Program-made: the position numbers and the translations under genes | Notes under the pieces: model-generated | Told to the model about the DNA's origin: nothing | Database searches by the model: none | What the model saw: only the letters and a program-made list of their open reading frames with translations | In this document: positions 5,391 through 14,750 of the stretch, in pieces | Position numbering within the stretch: position 1 is the first letter of the stretch | Layout: each line of letters starts with the position of its first letter | Assembly: GCA_021801645.1 (NCBI GenBank) | Contig: JAJYXT010000081.1 | Location: 1-33,826, forward strand | Direction: 5' to 3' | Length of the DNA: 33,826 nt | From: a bacterium | GTDB lineage: Bacteria > Chloroflexota > Dormibacteria > Aeolococcales > Bog-877

Positions 5391-6908
5391 TCAGGCAGCG
5401 CTCGCCCGGGTCGCCGGCGCCTCGAGGGCAGCTCCCGACTCGCTCCGGTTGAGCAGCGGGGCGAACAGGGAGACGATGGCCCCGATCAGCATCAGCACCT
5501 GTCCGGCGACGTAGAGGAGCTCTCCCCCGCTGCCGATGGACCAGGTGCTCAGGTGTCCAGGGGTCGAGAACACCCAGATGCCCATGCCCACGAGCGTCAC
5601 CACCATGCCCGCCATAACCAGGCGGGCCATCCACTTCTTCACCGTGAGCCCGGCGGCCGAGACGTTGCCCACCAGCTCAGTGGCCAGCAGGAAGACAGCC
5701 ACGATGGGCAGCGCCCCGAAGACGAACAGCAGGTGGCTGCGGGTGAAGATCTGGTCGTCGATCACCCGCGAGGCGGAGCCGGTGCTGGCGAACCCGAACT
5801 GGGTCTCGTTCATCTCGATGTAGTAGCCGTAGAAGTACATGTCGGCGGTCGCCATCACGTAGGTGAGGTAGACCCCGACCCTTACCGGGTTCAGCCGCCG
5901 AAGCGCCCGCCCGGTGCCCCCCGCCACCCGGAGGAAGGCCCCGCGGAGCTCAGGGAGCATCGCTCCCGCCAGGATGAGTGAGCCCACGCCCACGAGCCCC
6001 GTCATGGTGTCGTCCATGGCGATGCCGTTGGCACCGCCGGCTCCGTGCGGGAACCAGGCGGGGATCACGAAGGTGCCCAGCCCGGAGACGGTGTAGATGC
6101 CGGAGTAAAGGGCGATGCCCGCCAGCATGAGACCGGCTCCCGACCGAGCCAGCTGCTTGCGCGCGCCGGTGAGCCGGGAGTAGCCGAAGGCCTCCGCCGC
6201 CAAAAGCACGATCGCTCCCATGAAAGTGGGCAGCATCCCGTGGGAATGCGAGGTCACGATGTTGCCCATCAACGCTGAGGCGGACTCATGCTGAGCTCCC
6301 GCCCAGAAACTCCAGCTGATGCCCACCTCGGAGGCCGCCGCCAGCAACCCAAACACCACCCAGGTGAGGACTGAGACCCCGGCGAAGAAGAACACCCAGG
6401 TGATCTCCGCCTTCTGCGGCGTCATCGCCTCACCCTTGGGAGGAACCAGGGCACACCAGGCGAGGTCCACCACGAACAGCACTGTCACCCCGAAGAGCTC
6501 CAGGGTGGCGGGCATGATGACCCAGAAGCCGAAGTCGACCAGCGACGAGACGTTGTGCAGTGTCCCGTAGCCGAGGATCAGGAAGCCGGCACCCTCGAAG
6601 AGCGCCACCAGGGCGCTGTGGGTCACCAGGTAGCGCACCCAGGAGTGCAGCGTGAACACCCTGGTGCAGATGATCAGGAAGAGGAGGGCGGCCGGGAGCA
6701 TGAGTGCGTGGTAGAACCAGACCAGGGTTGGAGTTAGGTCCCCGCTGTTGCCCGGGGCCAGCCAGGGGGCGGTGATGAAGCTCAGCACCGCCACGATCAC
6801 GATCCAGGCCATGAGGACCCTAACCATCACGGCGGTGAAGTCCAGCCCGGAACCCTTCGAGATCGGAAGCGATCCCGGGCTGCCCGTGGTGTCGACTGCT
6901 GTTGCCAT
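5391..6908 (-). CDS. 12-TM His-rich membrane protein, heme-copper oxidase subunit I-like but non-canonical
   Basis: 505 aa; ATG at 6908 follows an AGGAGGGG-rich leader. I count about 12 hydrophobic segments (near 29-50, 62-83, 93-113, 123-150, 168-192, 211-240, 256-283, 300-320, 343-365, 390-412, 425-447, 463-485), as in heme-copper oxidase subunit I and NorB. Histidines lie in or beside helices: H67 (WFYHALM), H88, H97 (VTHSALV), H221/H223 (SHSHGMLPTF), H392 (TRSHLLF). The HxH pair recalls the heme-ligand pair of helix X, but here it sits in the sixth segment, and I see neither HPEVY-like nor HH copper motifs. The adjacent CtaB-like gene, 46 bp upstream on the same strand, supports a heme link. 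It could be a divergent oxidase or NO-reductase relative, a heme-binding quinol-interacting protein, or an unrelated polytopic protein. Confidence 0.55.
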   Translation of the reverse strand: MATAVDTTGSPGSLPISKGSGLDFTAVMVRVLMAWIVIVAVLSFITAPWLAPGNSGDLTPTLVWFYHALMLPAALLFLIICTRVFTLHSWVRYLVTHSALVALFEGAGFLILGYGTLHNVSSLVDFGFWVIMPATLELFGVTVLFVVDLAWCALVPPKGEAMTPQKAEITWVFFFAGVSVLTWVVFGLLAAASEVGISWSFWAGAQHESASALMGNIVTSHSHGMLPTFMGAIVLLAAEAFGYSRLTGARKQLARSGAGLMLAGIALYSGIYTVSGLGTFVIPAWFPHGAGGANGIAMDDTMTGLVGVGSLILAGAMLPELRGAFLRVAGGTGRALRRLNPVRVGVYLTYVMATADMYFYGYYIEMNETQFGFASTGSASRVIDDQIFTRSHLLFVFGALPIVAVFLLATELVGNVSAAGLTVKKWMARLVMAGMVVTLVGMGIWVFSTPGHLSTWSIGSGGELLYVAGQVLMLIGAIVSLFAPLLNRSESGAALEAPATRASAA

Positions 6909-6954
6909 CGTCCCCTCCTCTCCTCTCGGCCCTCTCAGGCGGCCGGCCTCGCGC

Positions 6955-7917
6955 TCACAGAGCGCAGGCCACAGCTGCCCCCAGGACCACCAACAAATAG
7001 ACCGTGATGAGGTGAATCAGCGGACCCGCCAGCCGGGGCCTGGTGGGCGCCACGCCGGCGCCCACCAGGATGGCTGCGGAGCAGGCCGCGGTCAGAGCCG
7101 CAACGGCGGGCGCTGCTGGCCCGCCCAGGCTGAGCAGGGAGCCAACCGCGAGCGCGCCCATCCCCGCAGCGGACACCAATAGGCCTGCGCGGAGCCAGCC
7201 GGGGCTCCAGACCAGCGGCGCCATGGGGACGGCGCCGGCAGCGTAGTCGTCCCGATAGCGCAGAGCGATCACCCAGATGTGGACGAAGATCCAGACGCCC
7301 ACCGTGCCACCGAGCATCCACGCCGCCGCGGGCAGGGGCTCACGAACAGCCGCCGCGCCGGCCCAGAGCGGAAGCGCCCCCACCACCGAGCCCAGAACGA
7401 TGCTCCAAGGGGTGGCGCGCTTGGTGAGCAGGCTGTAGACCACCACGTTGCTGAGAAGGGCGAAGGTGAGGAAGGTCAGGGCGACCGGGCCGAGCAGCGC
7501 GGCCAGCGCCAGCCCCGTCCCGGTGAGGACCACGGCGAGAAGCAGTGCCTCGGGCAGTGAGATCCGGCCGCTCACCAGGGGCCGCCCCTGGGTCCTGGGC
7601 ATCAGGGCGTCGAGATCGCGATCTCGGATGTTGGTCCAGCACTCGGCCCCGGAGCTGAGCAGGGCAACGGAGCCCGCCAGCACAAGGACCCGGAAGAGCG
7701 GGAAGGGGCCGGACCAATGCCAGCTGACGACCGCCCCCGCGACCGCAACGGCCACGAAGGTCACATCAATGTGAGGCTTGACAAAGGTCAGGAAGTCGGC
7801 CGCCCGGGCCCAGCCCGAGCTCCTCGCCGGCATCGCTGCGCCGGAGGCCAATCCCACCACCTCGCCCTCCAAGACCGGGCCGCGCCGACGGCCCGGAGAG
7901 GAAATTCCATCTCCCAT
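6955..7917 (-). CDS. UbiA-family prenyltransferase, CtaB-like (heme O synthase / protoheme IX farnesyltransferase)
   Basis: 320 aa from the ATG at 7917; an internal ATG at 7833 would give 292 aa, nearer the conserved start 'FLTFVKPHIDVT'. The first Asp-rich motif is NIRDRDLDALM followed by RTQGRPLVSG, close to CtaB 'NxxxDRDxDxxMxRTxxRPLxxG'. Then come KRATPWSIVLGSVVGALPLW (CtaB KRxTPxNIxxGxxxGAxPP) and the second motif region VHIWVIALRYRDDYAAGAVP (CtaB HFWxLALxxxxDYxxAGVPM). About eight to nine helices follow the UbiA pattern. It would farnesylate heme B at the membrane to give heme O for a heme-copper-type oxidase. The downstream oxidase-like gene is the obvious partner. Variation around the second motif (VHIW instead of PPHFW) leaves some doubt about substrate. 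Confidence 0.78.
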   Translation of the reverse strand: MGDGISSPGRRRGPVLEGEVVGLASGAAMPARSSGWARAADFLTFVKPHIDVTFVAVAVAGAVVSWHWSGPFPLFRVLVLAGSVALLSSGAECWTNIRDRDLDALMPRTQGRPLVSGRISLPEALLLAVVLTGTGLALAALLGPVALTFLTFALLSNVVVYSLLTKRATPWSIVLGSVVGALPLWAGAAAVREPLPAAAWMLGGTVGVWIFVHIWVIALRYRDDYAAGAVPMAPLVWSPGWLRAGLLVSAAGMGALAVGSLLSLGGPAAPAVAALTAACSAAILVGAGVAPTRPRLAGPLIHLITVYLLVVLGAAVACAL

Positions 7918-8188: not shown

Positions 8189-8737
8189 TCAGATCTCAGC
8201 GGTGGGTGAGACCTTCCGCCAGTGGGCGACCCCCAGCACCGTCAGCAGGAAGAAGACCACCGCCAGGGAGAAGGCCACCAGCGAGGAGATCCAGGCGATG
8301 GTTCCGAAGACGGAGAACCCGTAGGCCTCCAGCAGCTCGCTGCGCAGCGTGGTGCCCTGGAAAACCGTGCTCTCGAGGGCCGCGTACTTGGCGTTGGTGG
8401 GGTTGGAGCGAGCCAGCGTGCTGGCCTGGTCGTAGGTGAGCCCAATCTCGTGCAGGTGGACAGCGATGAAGTGGTCGGCCCAGACCTCGGCCTGAGCTCC
8501 GGTGGTCATGAGCTGGCCCGCGTACTGCTTCATCAGCGTGGCGTCCGCCTTGGGAAGCGCCTTGATCTCAGAGCTGTTGGCCGCTGGGAAGTAGATCTTC
8601 TGGGAGGCCAGCTGGTTGTGGACCTCGGTGTTGGTGTAGTTGGCGCCCCAGAGCAGGAGCGAGCCCGCCCCCACCAGGATCACCGTAATCAGCGCTCCCA
8701 GCACTGTCAGGATTCCGTCGAAGGTCTTCCGTCGCAT
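8189..8737 (-). CDS. Two-TM membrane protein with exported helical domain, unknown function
   Basis: 182 aa; ATG at 8737 has an excellent GGGAGGTG Shine-Dalgarno 7 nt upstream. One helix lies near residues 9-30 (TVLGALITVILVGAGSLLLW), then a 100-residue extracytoplasmic section, then a second helix near 143-168, with both ends inside. The exported part has recognisable phrases: 'QKIYFPAANSSEIKALP', 'YAGQLMTTGAQAEVWADHFI' followed by AVHLHEIG, and YDQASTLARSNPTN with YAALESTVFQGTTLR. I believe similar unnamed proteins are common in high-GC Gram-positive genomes, but no function is known to me. Its place between an HtrA protease and the oxidase/CtaB genes suggests an envelope role. Hairpins on both sides indicate a separate transcript. 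Confidence 0.75.
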   Translation of the reverse strand: MRRKTFDGILTVLGALITVILVGAGSLLLWGANYTNTEVHNQLASQKIYFPAANSSEIKALPKADATLMKQYAGQLMTTGAQAEVWADHFIAVHLHEIGLTYDQASTLARSNPTNAKYAALESTVFQGTTLRSELLEAYGFSVFGTIAWISSLVAFSLAVVFFLLTVLGVAHWRKVSPTAEI

Positions 8738-10544: not shown

Positions 10545-11807
10545 TTAAGACTCACGCTCGATGGCCCGGAAGGCGAGGCAGGCGTTGTGCCCCCCAAAGC
10601 CGAACGAGTTGTTCAGCACCAGCCGGGGTCGCACCAGGCGGGCTCCCTCAGGAACGTAGTCGAGGTCGCACTCCGGGTCCGGGTCCCGGTAGTTGATGGT
10701 CGGCGGCACCCGGCCGTCCACGATGGCCATCACCGAGAACACTGACTCCATCGCTCCGGCGGCCCCCAGGGCATGTCCGGTCATGGACTTGGTGGAGGAC
10801 ACCGGGATCCGGTGGGCCCGCTCGCCCAGAACCTGCTTGAGGGCCGAGGTCTCGGCAGAGTCATTCATCGGGGTGGAGGTACCGTGGGCGTTCACGTAGT
10901 CCACCTCCTCCGGTCCCGCGCCGGCCTTCTCCAGCGCCCGGACCATCGCCCGCTTGGCCCCCCTCCCGCTGGGCTCTGGGGCGGTCAGGTGATAGGCGTC
11001 GGCGCTGGCTCCGTACCCGGCGACCTCCGCCAGGATGGGGGCCGAGCGCCTTTGGGCGTGCTCGTACTCCTCCAGGATGAGGATGGCGCAGGCCTCGGCC
11101 ACCACAAACCCGTCCCTACCCGCGTCGAAGGGCCGGCTGGCGTGCTCCGGATCGTCGTTGCGCTGTGAGAGAGCCCGCATGGAGCTGAACGCGCCCACCG
11201 CCAGAGGTGTGATCGAGGCCTCGCTTCCACCAGCGATGCAGGCCACGGCGTCCCCCCTCCGGATGATCTCGGCCGCCTCCCCGATGGCGTGCGCTCCCGT
11301 GGCGCACGCGGAGACCAGGGCGAAGTTGGGACCGCTGGCCCCGAAGCGCATGGCGACCTCCCCAGCGGCGATGTCCGCCAGGATCATGGGCACCGTGAAG
11401 GGACTCAGCCTCCTCGGTCCCCGCTCGGCCAGGGTGTGGGTGGCCTCCTCGGTGACCTTGAGCCCCCCTATGCCTGAGCCTACGATCACCCCCACGAGGT
11501 CGCGGTTGGAGTCATCTATGGGCAGGCCGGACTGGTCCATGGCCTCCTGGGTGGCCGCCAGGGCGAACTGGGTGAAGCGAGCGGTGCGGCTGACCTGCTT
11601 GCGGTCCACGTAGTCGGTGGGCTCGAAGTCCAGCACCTCGCCGGCCATCTGCGACCCGTAAGGCTCGGGGTCGAAACCCTGGATCCGGTGAATCCCGTTG
11701 CGGCCCGCGCACACAGCCTCCCAGGCCGCCTTGACCCCGATGCCGACCGGGGTCACAGCCCCCATCCCCGTGACCACGATCCTGGTTCCGTTCCGCGCCT
11801 GCGTCAC
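10545..11807 (-). CDS. fabF: Beta-ketoacyl-ACP synthase II
   Basis: 420 aa. GTG at 11807 overlaps the fabH stop (GTGA), so the two are translationally coupled. The thiolase-fold condensing enzyme carries the Cys-His-His triad: Cys168 (VSACATGAHAIG), His308 (VNAHGTSTPMND) and His345 (STKSMTGHALGAAG), plus the gating loop NNSFGFGGHN near the C-terminus. It elongates acyl-ACP with malonyl-ACP in the cytoplasmic type II fatty acid pathway. One oddity is that the segment usually reading 'GFVxGxGAG' is GFVVAEACAILILEE here (about 233-247), with two glycines replaced by Ala and an extra Cys; this may only reflect the lineage. A strong hairpin about 140 nt downstream ends the unit. No acpP, fabD or fabG lies nearby. 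Confidence 0.93.
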   Translation of the reverse strand: MTQARNGTRIVVTGMGAVTPVGIGVKAAWEAVCAGRNGIHRIQGFDPEPYGSQMAGEVLDFEPTDYVDRKQVSRTARFTQFALAATQEAMDQSGLPIDDSNRDLVGVIVGSGIGGLKVTEEATHTLAERGPRRLSPFTVPMILADIAAGEVAMRFGASGPNFALVSACATGAHAIGEAAEIIRRGDAVACIAGGSEASITPLAVGAFSSMRALSQRNDDPEHASRPFDAGRDGFVVAEACAILILEEYEHAQRRSAPILAEVAGYGASADAYHLTAPEPSGRGAKRAMVRALEKAGAGPEEVDYVNAHGTSTPMNDSAETSALKQVLGERAHRIPVSSTKSMTGHALGAAGAMESVFSVMAIVDGRVPPTINYRDPDPECDLDYVPEGARLVRPRLVLNNSFGFGGHNACLAFRAIERES

Positions 11808-12931
11808 TCCACTGCCTCCTGTCGTCCCCGATCGGATACCAGCTCCCCCCCGGGGTCGTCAACCAGCGCCGGGGTGTCCCCCCATCTGAGGAAGGCTCCC
11901 CCCCAGGTGAGACCTGCCCCGAACGCCACCATGCAGACCCCGGCCCCGGGAGCGATGCGGCCAGCGGCGGCAGCCTCCGCCAGAGCCAGCGGAACCGAGG
12001 CGGACGAGGTGTTGCCCATCCGGTCGACGTTGATGGCAAAGCGCTCCATCGGCATGCCGAGCCTCCCAGCGGCGGTGGCCAGGATCCGGGAGTTGGCCTG
12101 ATGGGGGACCACCAGGGTGATCTCCTCGGGGGTCACCCCGGCTGCACCGGCGAGCCGGACTATCAGCTGCTCCAGGATGCGGGTGGAGAAGCGGAAGACC
12201 TCGCGGCCGTTCATGAAGACGACCCGGTTGAGGGACCGCTCCGCCCGGGCGTAGGCCGGGATCGCCGCGGGGAGCGCCGAGTCCGAGGCGGGCGAGGTGC
12301 CGAGGGAGGCCGCCCCCGTCCCGTCCGCCCCCAGGTCGATGGCGACGATCTCGCTGCCGGGTTCCCCGGGCCCCCCGACCAGCATCGCCCCGGCACCGTC
12401 CCCGAAGAGGACCGCGGTGGACCGGTCCGACCAGTCGACCAGTCGGCTGAACAGCTCCGCCGCCACGACCAGCACCCGGCGGCTGAGCCCGGTCTGGATC
12501 AGCGACTGGGCCAGCGCCAGCCCATAGATGGCCCCGGAGCAGGCGGCCTGGATGTCGAAGGCCGCCCCGTGGGGACAGCCCAGTTCGGCCTGCAGCCGGC
12601 ACGCCAGCGAGGGGAACGTCTCATCCGGCGAGCTGCTAGAGCAGATGATCGTGTCCACGTCAGCCGCCGTCCATCCCCCGGCGTCCATGGCCGCTCGGGC
12701 GGCTCGGGCAGCGATTTCCACCAGAGTGACCTCGGGATCCGCGATTCGGCGCTCCCGAATCCCGGTGCGACTGCTGATCCACTCGTCCGAGGTGTCGATG
12801 AAGGTCTCCACCTCGGAGTTGGTGAGGCGGCGCTCGGGAAGTGCGCTGCCCACCGCCACCAGCCGGCAGCCCGGGGGCGAGCCGCCATCGCCCGCCCGCC
12901 ACGGATTGCCCACGTGCTCTGCAAGGCTCAT
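11804..12931 (-). CDS. fabH: Beta-ketoacyl-ACP synthase III
   Basis: 375 aa from the ATG at 12931 (MSLAEHVGNP), with a modest GCGGGGA ribosome binding site. The catalytic triad is present: Cys131 (QAACSGAIYGLALAQS), His277 (VPHQANSRI) and Asn307 (NVDRMGNTSSASVPLAL), with 'DEWISSRTGIRERR' near residues 49-62 and FGDGAGAMLVG typical of FabH. It begins fatty acid synthesis by condensing an acyl-CoA primer with malonyl-ACP. The gene is about 40-50 residues longer than E. coli FabH, through an N-terminal extension and a short acidic C-terminal tail. It is divergent from accD-accA across a 140-bp gap, so malonyl-CoA supply and initiation can be co-regulated. Primer specificity (acetyl or branched) cannot be read from sequence. 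Confidence 0.93.
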   Translation of the reverse strand: MSLAEHVGNPWRAGDGGSPPGCRLVAVGSALPERRLTNSEVETFIDTSDEWISSRTGIRERRIADPEVTLVEIAARAARAAMDAGGWTAADVDTIICSSSSPDETFPSLACRLQAELGCPHGAAFDIQAACSGAIYGLALAQSLIQTGLSRRVLVVAAELFSRLVDWSDRSTAVLFGDGAGAMLVGGPGEPGSEIVAIDLGADGTGAASLGTSPASDSALPAAIPAYARAERSLNRVVFMNGREVFRFSTRILEQLIVRLAGAAGVTPEEITLVVPHQANSRILATAAGRLGMPMERFAINVDRMGNTSSASVPLALAEAAAAGRIAPGAGVCMVAFGAGLTWGGAFLRWGDTPALVDDPGGELVSDRGRQEAVE

Positions 12932-13071
12932 AGTCCCCGCTAGGTTACGGGCTCGGGGTGGAGTCCAACTGGAGCGTAACCTTTGCCGGTCTCCGGGACT
13001 CAACCTTCAGTGAGACCTGGGGCCAGAATGGTGGTCGAGATTGGGCTGCGGGCCCGCGAGGGAGGACCCAG
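12932..13071. promoter_or_regulatory. Divergent promoter region fabH / accD
   Basis: 140 bp shared by two divergent lipid-synthesis operons. Toward fabH, TAACCT lies 10 nt upstream of the ATG (minus strand); a second TAACCT lies on the plus strand around 12976-12981, pointing to accD. No clear -35 elements or palindrome were found, so a specific operator cannot be named. Confidence 0.35.
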
Positions 13072-13917
13072 ATGGCGATAAGCCCTGCCTATGCGCGTCC
13101 CCGAACGGTGGACTCCGGCTTCACCTGTGGCGCCTGCCAGCGGACCTTCCCCATGGCGCAGGCCGCTGGCAGCCTTTACGTCTGCCCCACCTGCGGGCAC
13201 CACTCCCGGATCAGCGCCCACGAGAGGGTGCGCCAGCTGGCCGACAAGGGCACCTTCCAGGAGTGGGATGCGAATCTGGCCGGCCGGGACCGGCTGGGCT
13301 TCGTGGACACCAAGGCCTACGTGGACCGCCTGGCGGAGGCCCGCCAGAGGCAGCAGCTCCCCGATGCGATCCTCACCGGGGCGGCCTCGATCTCCGGTCA
13401 TCCGGTCGGGCTGGCCTCCTTCGACTTCGGCTTCCTGGGCGGCAGCCTCTCCACCGCCGTGGGCGAGCGGCTGGCCCGGGCCATCGAGAGGAGCGCCACC
13501 GAGCTGCGTCCCTTCGTCTGCGTCACCTCCTCCGGGGGTGCCCGGATGCAGGAGGGCGTCTTCTCCCTGATGCAGATGGCCAAGAGCGTGGCCGCCCTGC
13601 ACCAGCTCGCGGAGGCCCACGTTCCGTTCATCTCCATCTTGGCCGACCCCACCATGGGGGGAAGCATCGCCAGCTTCGCGGCCCTTGGCGACGTCATCCT
13701 GGCGGAGCCCAAGGCGATGATCGGGTTCACCGGGGCCCGGGTCATCACCCAGGCCACCTATGAGCAGCTCCCCGCCGGCTTTCAGACCAGCGAGTTCCAC
13801 CATGCCCGAGGCCTGATCGACCAGGTGGTCGACCGCCGCCAGCTGCGCGAGGTGCTGGGGCGGCTGCTGGCGGTGCTCGGCCCCTCCGCCGCGGAGGACG
13901 CCCGGCGCCCGGCGTGA
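13072..13917 (+). CDS. accD: Acetyl-CoA carboxylase carboxyltransferase subunit beta
   Basis: 281 aa from the ATG at 13072, behind GGGAGGA. The N-terminal zinc ribbon is intact: Cys19, Cys22 (FTCGACQRTF), Cys38 and Cys41 (YVCPTCGHHS). The crotonase-like carboxyltransferase domain follows with 'DFGFLGGSLSTAVGERLARA', 'VTSSGGARMQEGVFSLMQMA', 'ILADPTMGGSIASFAALGD' and AMIGFTGARV. It pairs with AccA to transfer CO2 from carboxybiotin to acetyl-CoA, making malonyl-CoA in the cytoplasm. Its stop overlaps the accA start (GTGA). Biotin carboxylase and carrier genes are not in the window. Separate beta and alpha subunits, rather than the fused AccD type of many actinomycetes, are useful for placing the organism. 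Confidence 0.95.
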   Translation: MAISPAYARPRTVDSGFTCGACQRTFPMAQAAGSLYVCPTCGHHSRISAHERVRQLADKGTFQEWDANLAGRDRLGFVDTKAYVDRLAEARQRQQLPDAILTGAASISGHPVGLASFDFGFLGGSLSTAVGERLARAIERSATELRPFVCVTSSGGARMQEGVFSLMQMAKSVAALHQLAEAHVPFISILADPTMGGSIASFAALGDVILAEPKAMIGFTGARVITQATYEQLPAGFQTSEFHHARGLIDQVVDRRQLREVLGRLLAVLGPSAAEDARRPA

Positions 13918-14750
13918 GCTCCACGGACCTCGACGGCGCCGCCGCCGGGGAGGCCGCCCAGGCCGCCTGGGCCCACGTCGAGGTCTCTCGCCACCCGGAC
14001 CGCCCCTACTCCCTGGACCTGGTCCAACGCTGCCTGGACGACTTCATAGAGCTCCACGGCGACCGCCAGGGTGGGGATGACGCGGCGGTGGTCATCGGGC
14101 TGGCACGGCTGGGTGGCCAGCCGCTGGCGGTGGTCGCCAACCAGAAGGGACGGACCCTGGAGGAGCGGGGCAAGCGCAACTTCGGCATGGCCCACCCGGA
14201 GGGCTACCGCAAGGCCCAGCGGCTCTTCACCCTGGCTGGACGGCTCAAGCTGCCGGTGGTCAGCTTCATCGACACTCCGGGCGCGTACCCTGGGGTGGCC
14301 GCCGAGGAGCGGGGCCAGGCCTGGGCCATCGCCCAGACTCTCGAGGCTCAGCTGGCCCTACCCACACCGTACCTGGCGGTGGTGATCGGGGAGGGGGGAA
14401 GCGGCGGGGCGCTGGCCACGCTCCTGGCCGACTCGGTCCTGGTGCTAGAGCACGCGTTCCTCTCCGTGGCCTCGCCGGAGGCGGCCGCCGCCATCCTCTT
14501 CCGGGACGCCGGGCGCAAGCAGCAGGCCGCGGCCGCGCTCAGGTTGGAGGCGGCCAACCTCCTGGAGTGGGGGATTGCGGACGAGATCGTGCCAGAGCCT
14601 CCGGGCGGCGCCCACACCGACTGGGACGAGACCGCCCGGCTACTCCGCCCGCGGCTGGAGGCCCGGCTCTTGGAGCTCACCTCCCGAGGGTTCGACCCCG
14701 CCCGCCGGCGGGAGCGCTACCGGCGCCTGGACGGGCTCTTCTCCGCCTGA
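13914..14750 (+). CDS. accA: Acetyl-CoA carboxylase carboxyltransferase subunit alpha
   Basis: 278 aa; GTG at 13914 overlaps the accD stop (GTGA), so AccD and AccA are made in balance. Landmarks: RPYSLDLVQRCLDDFIELHG, GDDAAVVIGLARLGG, 'NFGMAHPEGYRKAQRLFTLA', 'PVVSFIDTPGAYPGVAAEER' and VVIGEGGSGGAL, plus SVASPEAAAAILFRDAG, all standard for AccA. It is about 40 residues shorter than the E. coli protein, lacking most of the N-terminal helical extension. It completes the carboxyltransferase for malonyl-CoA synthesis. The last 34 nt overlap the 3' end of the convergent exporter gene, leaving no room for an intergenic terminator. Confidence 0.94.
   Translation: MSSTDLDGAAAGEAAQAAWAHVEVSRHPDRPYSLDLVQRCLDDFIELHGDRQGGDDAAVVIGLARLGGQPLAVVANQKGRTLEERGKRNFGMAHPEGYRKAQRLFTLAGRLKLPVVSFIDTPGAYPGVAAEERGQAWAIAQTLEAQLALPTPYLAVVIGEGGSGGALATLLADSVLVLEHAFLSVASPEAAAAILFRDAGRKQQAAAALRLEAANLLEWGIADEIVPEPPGGAHTDWDETARLLRPRLEARLLELTSRGFDPARRRERYRRLDGLFSA

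Follow-up and report, generated by a model that had tools for sequence, protein, structure and literature searches.

A predicted heme-copper oxidase-fold membrane protein with rearranged candidate heme ligands and no copper-site motifs, encoded beside a divergent heme O synthase gene in an uncultivated bacterium of the Chloroflexota

The stretch of 33,826 nucleotides analysed here (the window; contig JAJYXT010000081.1 of assembly GCA_021801645.1, Dormibacteria) encodes a 505-aa protein which, judging from its predicted structure and conserved histidines, is probably a copper-free heme protein with the fold of heme-copper oxidases (HCO). In the window's clade its cofactor fairly likely includes heme O supplied by the product of the adjacent gene, ctaB2. 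We give an even chance to the overall explanation, a membrane heme protein of the HCO/NOR fold with no CuB/FeB site and an NnrS- or NOR-like role. The features of the locus are listed below; the coordinates of the histidine codons were computed from the start of the ORF.

5391–6908, reverse strand: ORF of the 505-aa, 12-helix candidate HCO-fold heme protein (ORF, AlphaFold2 and Foldseek)
6708–6710, reverse strand: codon of H67, helix II, invariant in 25/25 members, candidate heme ligand
6240–6248, reverse strand: codons of H221-S222-H223 (HSH), helix VI, 25/25, candidate ligands of two hemes
6009–6029, reverse strand: codons of N294-G295-I-A-M-D299-D300 (NGIAxDD), start of helix VIII, with N, G, A, D and D conserved
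5805–5816, reverse strand: codons of E365-M-N-E368 (IExNE), end of helix IX, E365 25/25 and E368 23/25
5733–5735, reverse strand: codon of H392, helix X, His in 23/25 and Gln in 2/25, candidate heme ligand
6909–6954, reverse strand: intergenic gap of 46 bp within a same-strand pair, presumed operon
6955–7917, reverse strand: CtaB2, divergent heme O synthase paralogue of the UbiA superfamily (PF01040, TIGR01473, tree)
8189–8737, reverse strand: upstream of the pair, 182-aa protein without a family match and with apparently two TM segments

The ORF of the 505-aa protein starts with ATG. Its AlphaFold model contained 12 long helices (residues 24–46, 60–84, 89–115, 123–154, 164–194, 210–240, 248–279, 291–316, 341–366, 387–413, 418–447, and 461–481), in agreement with the helix count of oxidase subunit I that the earlier note had read from the sequence. 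Searches of Pfam, NCBIfam, PHROG, and PDB sequences with the single sequence and with profiles returned no match. None of the nine family members scanned matched PF00115 (COX1) at E ≤ 1 or PF05940 (NnrS). No NnrS match was obtained in the window's own genome, a 2.1-Mb draft with 85% completeness, but control searches there were likewise silent. At the sequence level, the protein is thus not assigned to any curated family. A gene for subunit II or cytochrome c, which the earlier note had likewise not seen nearby, was not found among the window genes scanned, which were a part of the ORFs.

Both AlphaFold2 models were built from close homologues only. Model 1, with an alignment of 11 of them, reached pTM 0.70 and pLDDT 63, and model 2, with a trimmed alignment, reached pTM 0.79 and pLDDT 71. 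For both models, nearly all top Foldseek matches in the PDB were HCO/NOR chains, namely subunit I of ba3, cbb3, bo3, and aa3 oxidases, cNOR, and qNOR (probability 0.9–1.0, top 1.00; TM about 0.4–0.56), and non-HCO folds remained at TM <0.3. The rmsd to the HCO/NOR chains was 7–10 Å, a modest similarity like the TM of about 0.5, and the E-values exceeded 1e-3 (best 1.7e-3 and 4.5e-3 for the two models). The comparison with oxidase folds proposed in the earlier note therefore led to HCO/NOR structures and not to an unrelated transporter family. The protein is predicted to adopt the 12-helix subunit I fold of HCO/NOR.

To probe for circular permutation, the four-helix units of the family were also aligned by hhalign, singly and in permuted orders, with COX1, B-type, and NOR alignments. 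The best of the six unit orders against the HCO profile was the non-cyclic BAC (global P=1e-6). Among the three cyclic orders B-C-A was the best (global P=5e-4), yet it stayed below BAC, and the units of HCO are similar to each other. The forward controls gave best P values of 0.34 (UbiA) and 0.027 (Nramp), and the reversed Nramp control gave 0.004. Profiles of single subfamilies were weaker against HCO than the combined family profile, and the profile of subfamily 1 alone gave no signal. The family profiles resemble HCO at the limit of detection, and the HCO units are too alike for hhalign to separate the orders decisively. Two COX1-like motifs are striking in the window's clade: DDQIFTRSH..LP, resembling the COX1 helix I–II motif (DDQIYN..TAH..MP), and WFYH, resembling WFYSHP of helix VI, which is present in L050. 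Both were dropped as proof of relationship since subfamily 1 does not keep them.

Conservation was counted over 25 divergent family members, down to about 23–29% identity. Residues H67, H221, H223, N294, G295, D299, D300, E365, and D385 were invariant in all of them. Both replacements of H392 by Gln occurred in subfamily 2, the third member of which, L120, appears to carry His. The histidines listed in the earlier note therefore held in homologues, except for H97, which was kept in only 7 of the 25 members and was rejected as a heme ligand. A conservation of this depth is not chance.

The four conserved histidines of the family form the layout H (helix II), HxH (helix VI), and H (helix X). The helix limits of the AlphaFold model placed the H221/H223 pair in the sixth helix and not in the tenth, as the earlier note had described. 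Neither HPEVY nor HH, which carry the CuB ligands, is present, and the protein does not have the six-histidine ligand set of HCO. In HCO, the layout is one His in helix II, one in VI, HH close to VII, and HxH in X. Within that HxH, the first His is turned toward the preceding unit, on the side of the high-spin heme and CuB, and the second toward the following unit, where it holds the low-spin heme together with the His of helix II. Assuming the same fold handedness as in HCO, H221 would point toward unit 1 (H67) and H223 toward unit 3 (H392). The cofactor set would then be rotated by one unit relative to HCO, and with HxH in helix VI a simple loss of copper is insufficient as an explanation. 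The 505-aa protein is not filed as an HCO because it lacks features that define HCO. A published HCO classifier demands all six His ligands (PMC3084760) and thus by design rejects relatives whose ligands are arranged differently.

The family is new and patchy in its distribution. It was detected in 10 of 110 genomes of the window's class by single-sequence search, in 13 of 400 genomes across the phylum by profile search, and in 12 of 177 genomes in the class of G316; the genomes with the family are incomplete MAGs throughout. Members of the window's clade share 56–98% identity. One relative at 83% identity is labelled Candidatus Dormiibacterota, and others at 56–70% are labelled Actinobacteria MAGs. 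Subfamily 1 (23–29% identity) occurs in G016, G117, G232, G233, G247, G316, G410, G496–G500, and G503, and subfamily 2 comprises L044:6106–7560, L119:5593–7068, and L120; a tree was computed for the family. The HCO-like proteins linked to CtaB2 occupy one side of a tree branch with support of 94/90. Genome G316 holds four family members. Two of its genes at locus L044 (3122–4693 and 6106–7560) lie side by side and belong to different subfamilies, one of them adjoining CtaB2. With HCO/NOR structures as Foldseek matches and no Pfam or NCBIfam match, the suggestion of an undescribed branch was borne out for a relative with the predicted HCO fold outside the described families. We consider the family a probably genuine HCO-fold branch that lacks the copper site, has rearranged ligands, and is apparently undescribed. 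The literature searched, in which few subscription journals were represented, yielded no report of an HCO branch of this type, whether permuted or lacking CuB.

The CtaB2 ORF, the first gene of the pair, encodes 320 aa from an ATG start and lies 46 bp upstream of the 505-aa gene on the same strand; both ORFs are exactly as described in the earlier note. The protein belongs to the UbiA family (129 bits with PF01040), and its best NCBIfam match is TIGR01473 with 166 bits, under the equivalog cut-off of 210. Linked copies in G316 (221) and G490 (215) exceed this cut-off. The active-site motifs NxxDRDxDxxMxRT..RP and DDY were retained in the motif alignment. CtaB2 lies directly upstream of the family gene in all 12 close loci where upstream sequence exists (window, L002, L003, and L005–L013; five are near-copies, and about eight are independent) and directly downstream in two of the three subfamily 2 loci, L119 (4-bp overlap) and L044. 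Around the subfamily 1 loci, no gene resembling CtaB2 was detected. The linked copies formed one clade (94/98), and the canonical CtaB of these genomes fell outside it. The linkage proposed earlier is thus conserved, and CtaB2 forms a paralogue clade of its own that is inherited together with the HCO-like family. Open frames of 669–708 aa with both CtaA and CtaB matches were observed at L128, L129, and L130 and suggest CtaA–CtaB fusions.

The window's genome carries canonical CtaB (299 bits), COX1, and CtaA elsewhere. In draft genomes G490 (90% complete) and G025 (87%), the linked CtaB2 was the sole heme O synthase found. COX1 was not found in these two drafts, and neither was CtaA above the cut-off, with one weak sub-threshold match in G025; both genomes carry cytochrome bd. 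COX1 was also not found in G153, which belongs to the genus of G490 and is 95% complete. Since G490 and G025 yielded neither COX1 nor a second confident CtaB, the HCO-like protein would be the natural client of the CtaB2 product in them. Four genomes with subfamily 1 (G016, G117, G503, and G410) have no confident CtaB, so heme O is not family-wide.

Hemerythrin-like genes were found near subfamily 1 members at L122, L123, L042, L044, and L039. The neighbours at L122 also include an Rrf2 regulator and a NiFe hydrogenase with its cytochrome b, and those at L039 include HypD/HypF and an ABC exporter that we read as being of the CydDC type. This evidence comes mostly from one genus plus G016. Proteobacterial NO-response regulons are common to NsrR, DnrN, and NnrS (PMC1274295). 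These regulons, together with the neighbours of the distant subfamily 1, tentatively suggest an NO/O2-related role for the 505-aa protein. The 182-aa protein upstream of ctaB2 was seen there only in the window's genus and is at most a candidate member of the system. Farther along the window, positions 10545–14750 contain a fatty-acid/polyketide-type cluster with a ketoacyl synthase, a KAS III-like protein, and two divergently arranged acetyl-CoA carboxylase carboxyltransferase subunits.

In the mechanism that we propose, hemes would be held by the HxH of helix VI and by one His each from helices II and X. To judge from the fold's handedness, H223 and H392 would most likely surround one heme, and the other would be bound by H221 with H67 on its distal side. 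Heme O from the adjacent CtaB2 would be part of the cofactor for members of the window's clade and of one distant subfamily. The likeliest role, though a tentative one, would be to bind or turn over NO (or O2) with electrons of the quinol pool, and the protein may protect against reactive gases in the manner of NnrS or NOR. A standard proton-pumping O2 reductase is unlikely because there is no binuclear copper site. We also regard as rather doubtful a further-reaching version, in which the ligand set was rotated by one four-helix unit, through circular permutation or independent evolution of ligands on an ancient three-fold scaffold, to give a copper-free di-heme O NO/O2 reductase in HCO-less bacteria.

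An active O2 or NO reductase could alternatively contain non-heme iron or another second metal held by D299, D300, E365, and D385 with H67. These carboxylates are as invariant as the histidines, NOR provides a precedent with its non-heme iron in the HCO fold, and the linked heme O synthase likens the protein to true oxidases. However, the carboxylates lie at helix ends, predicted to be on one face of the membrane, and not where CuB/FeB are bound in helices VI–VII. The genes scanned nearby include no partner of the subunit II or cytochrome c kind, and the genomes carry cytochrome bd or COX1; we hold such a reductase to be rather unlikely. The pairing with a heme O synthase, and the presence of conventional COX1, CtaA, and CtaB elsewhere in the window's genome, would also suit a chaperone or insertase that loads a conventional oxidase with the product of CtaB2, comparable to CtaM, which is encoded beside ctaB in Staphylococcus and has a proposed role of the heme O delivery type (PMC4958251). 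The pair is nevertheless present in G490 and G025, where COX1 was not found; with G153 also lacking a COX1 match, these genomes offer no known oxidase to receive the heme, and this function is unlikely.

A conventional HCO that degenerated by loss of CuB, its helix registers misread by us, would have the same predicted fold and the same histidine-bearing helices II, VI, and X. Such an origin is quite improbable given that all 25 members have HxH in helix VI and only one His (or Gln) in X, that the nine members scanned show no Pfam COX1 signal, and that conservation is strong throughout a deep family. Finally, the absence of a significant family match at the level of sequence would be expected of a membrane protein unrelated to HCO, such as a transporter with coincidentally conserved histidines, but the top Foldseek matches of two models fell in the HCO superfamily, other folds stayed below TM 0.3, and a heme O synthase is co-inherited, so that we consider this very unlikely. 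The copper-free HCO-fold heme protein remains our preferred reading. Such a family would bear on the origin of the three-fold HCO scaffold, on whether copper came after heme, and on the use of heme O outside oxidases. Among the proteins encoded by little-known uncultivated bacteria, it would be a further unassigned one with a respiratory or stress role.

Other HCO-like proteins were observed. Two PF00115 proteins of 717–722 aa with three similar internal units, L086:6670–8835 (forward strand) and L100:1–2151 (reverse strand), resemble the window family in having the layout H / HxH / H over three units of four helices each and neither HPEVY nor HH. They differ from it in that they match PF00115 clearly (105 bits) and have strong internal repeats; each of their three units matches the helix IX–XII unit of HCO, and a direct match in sequence between them and the window family was not found. 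HCO-like proteins of about 390–490 aa are encoded at L098:285–1706 (forward), L099:324–1799 (reverse), and L103:1–1161 (forward). The L098 protein has HxH in its middle third, no HPEVY, and a score just under the PF00115 cut-off, and the profile of this group matches HCO strongly.

NnrS is a membrane protein with 12 TM segments that contains heme and is not one of the classical oxidases. In this respect and in a possible NO-stress context the window family may resemble it, but none of the nine members scanned matches PF05940. NnrS has been described as containing heme and copper (PMC1274295). With subunit I of HCO/NOR (PF00115), the window family shares the predicted 12-helix fold, the three histidine-bearing helices (II, VI, and X), the presence of an HxH pair, and linkage to a heme O synthase. 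In contrast to HCO, it has HxH in helix VI instead of X, a single His in X, and no HPEVY, HH, CuB/FeB ligands, or PF00115 match, and its pair in the window has no subunit II or cytochrome c gene nearby among the genes scanned. CtaB2 resembles CtaB/CyoE (TIGR01473) as a UbiA-family protein with the NxxDRDxDxxMxRT..RP and DDY motifs and with this family as its best NCBIfam match, but it falls under the cut-off (166 vs. 210 bits) and belongs to a clade tied to the HCO-like gene.
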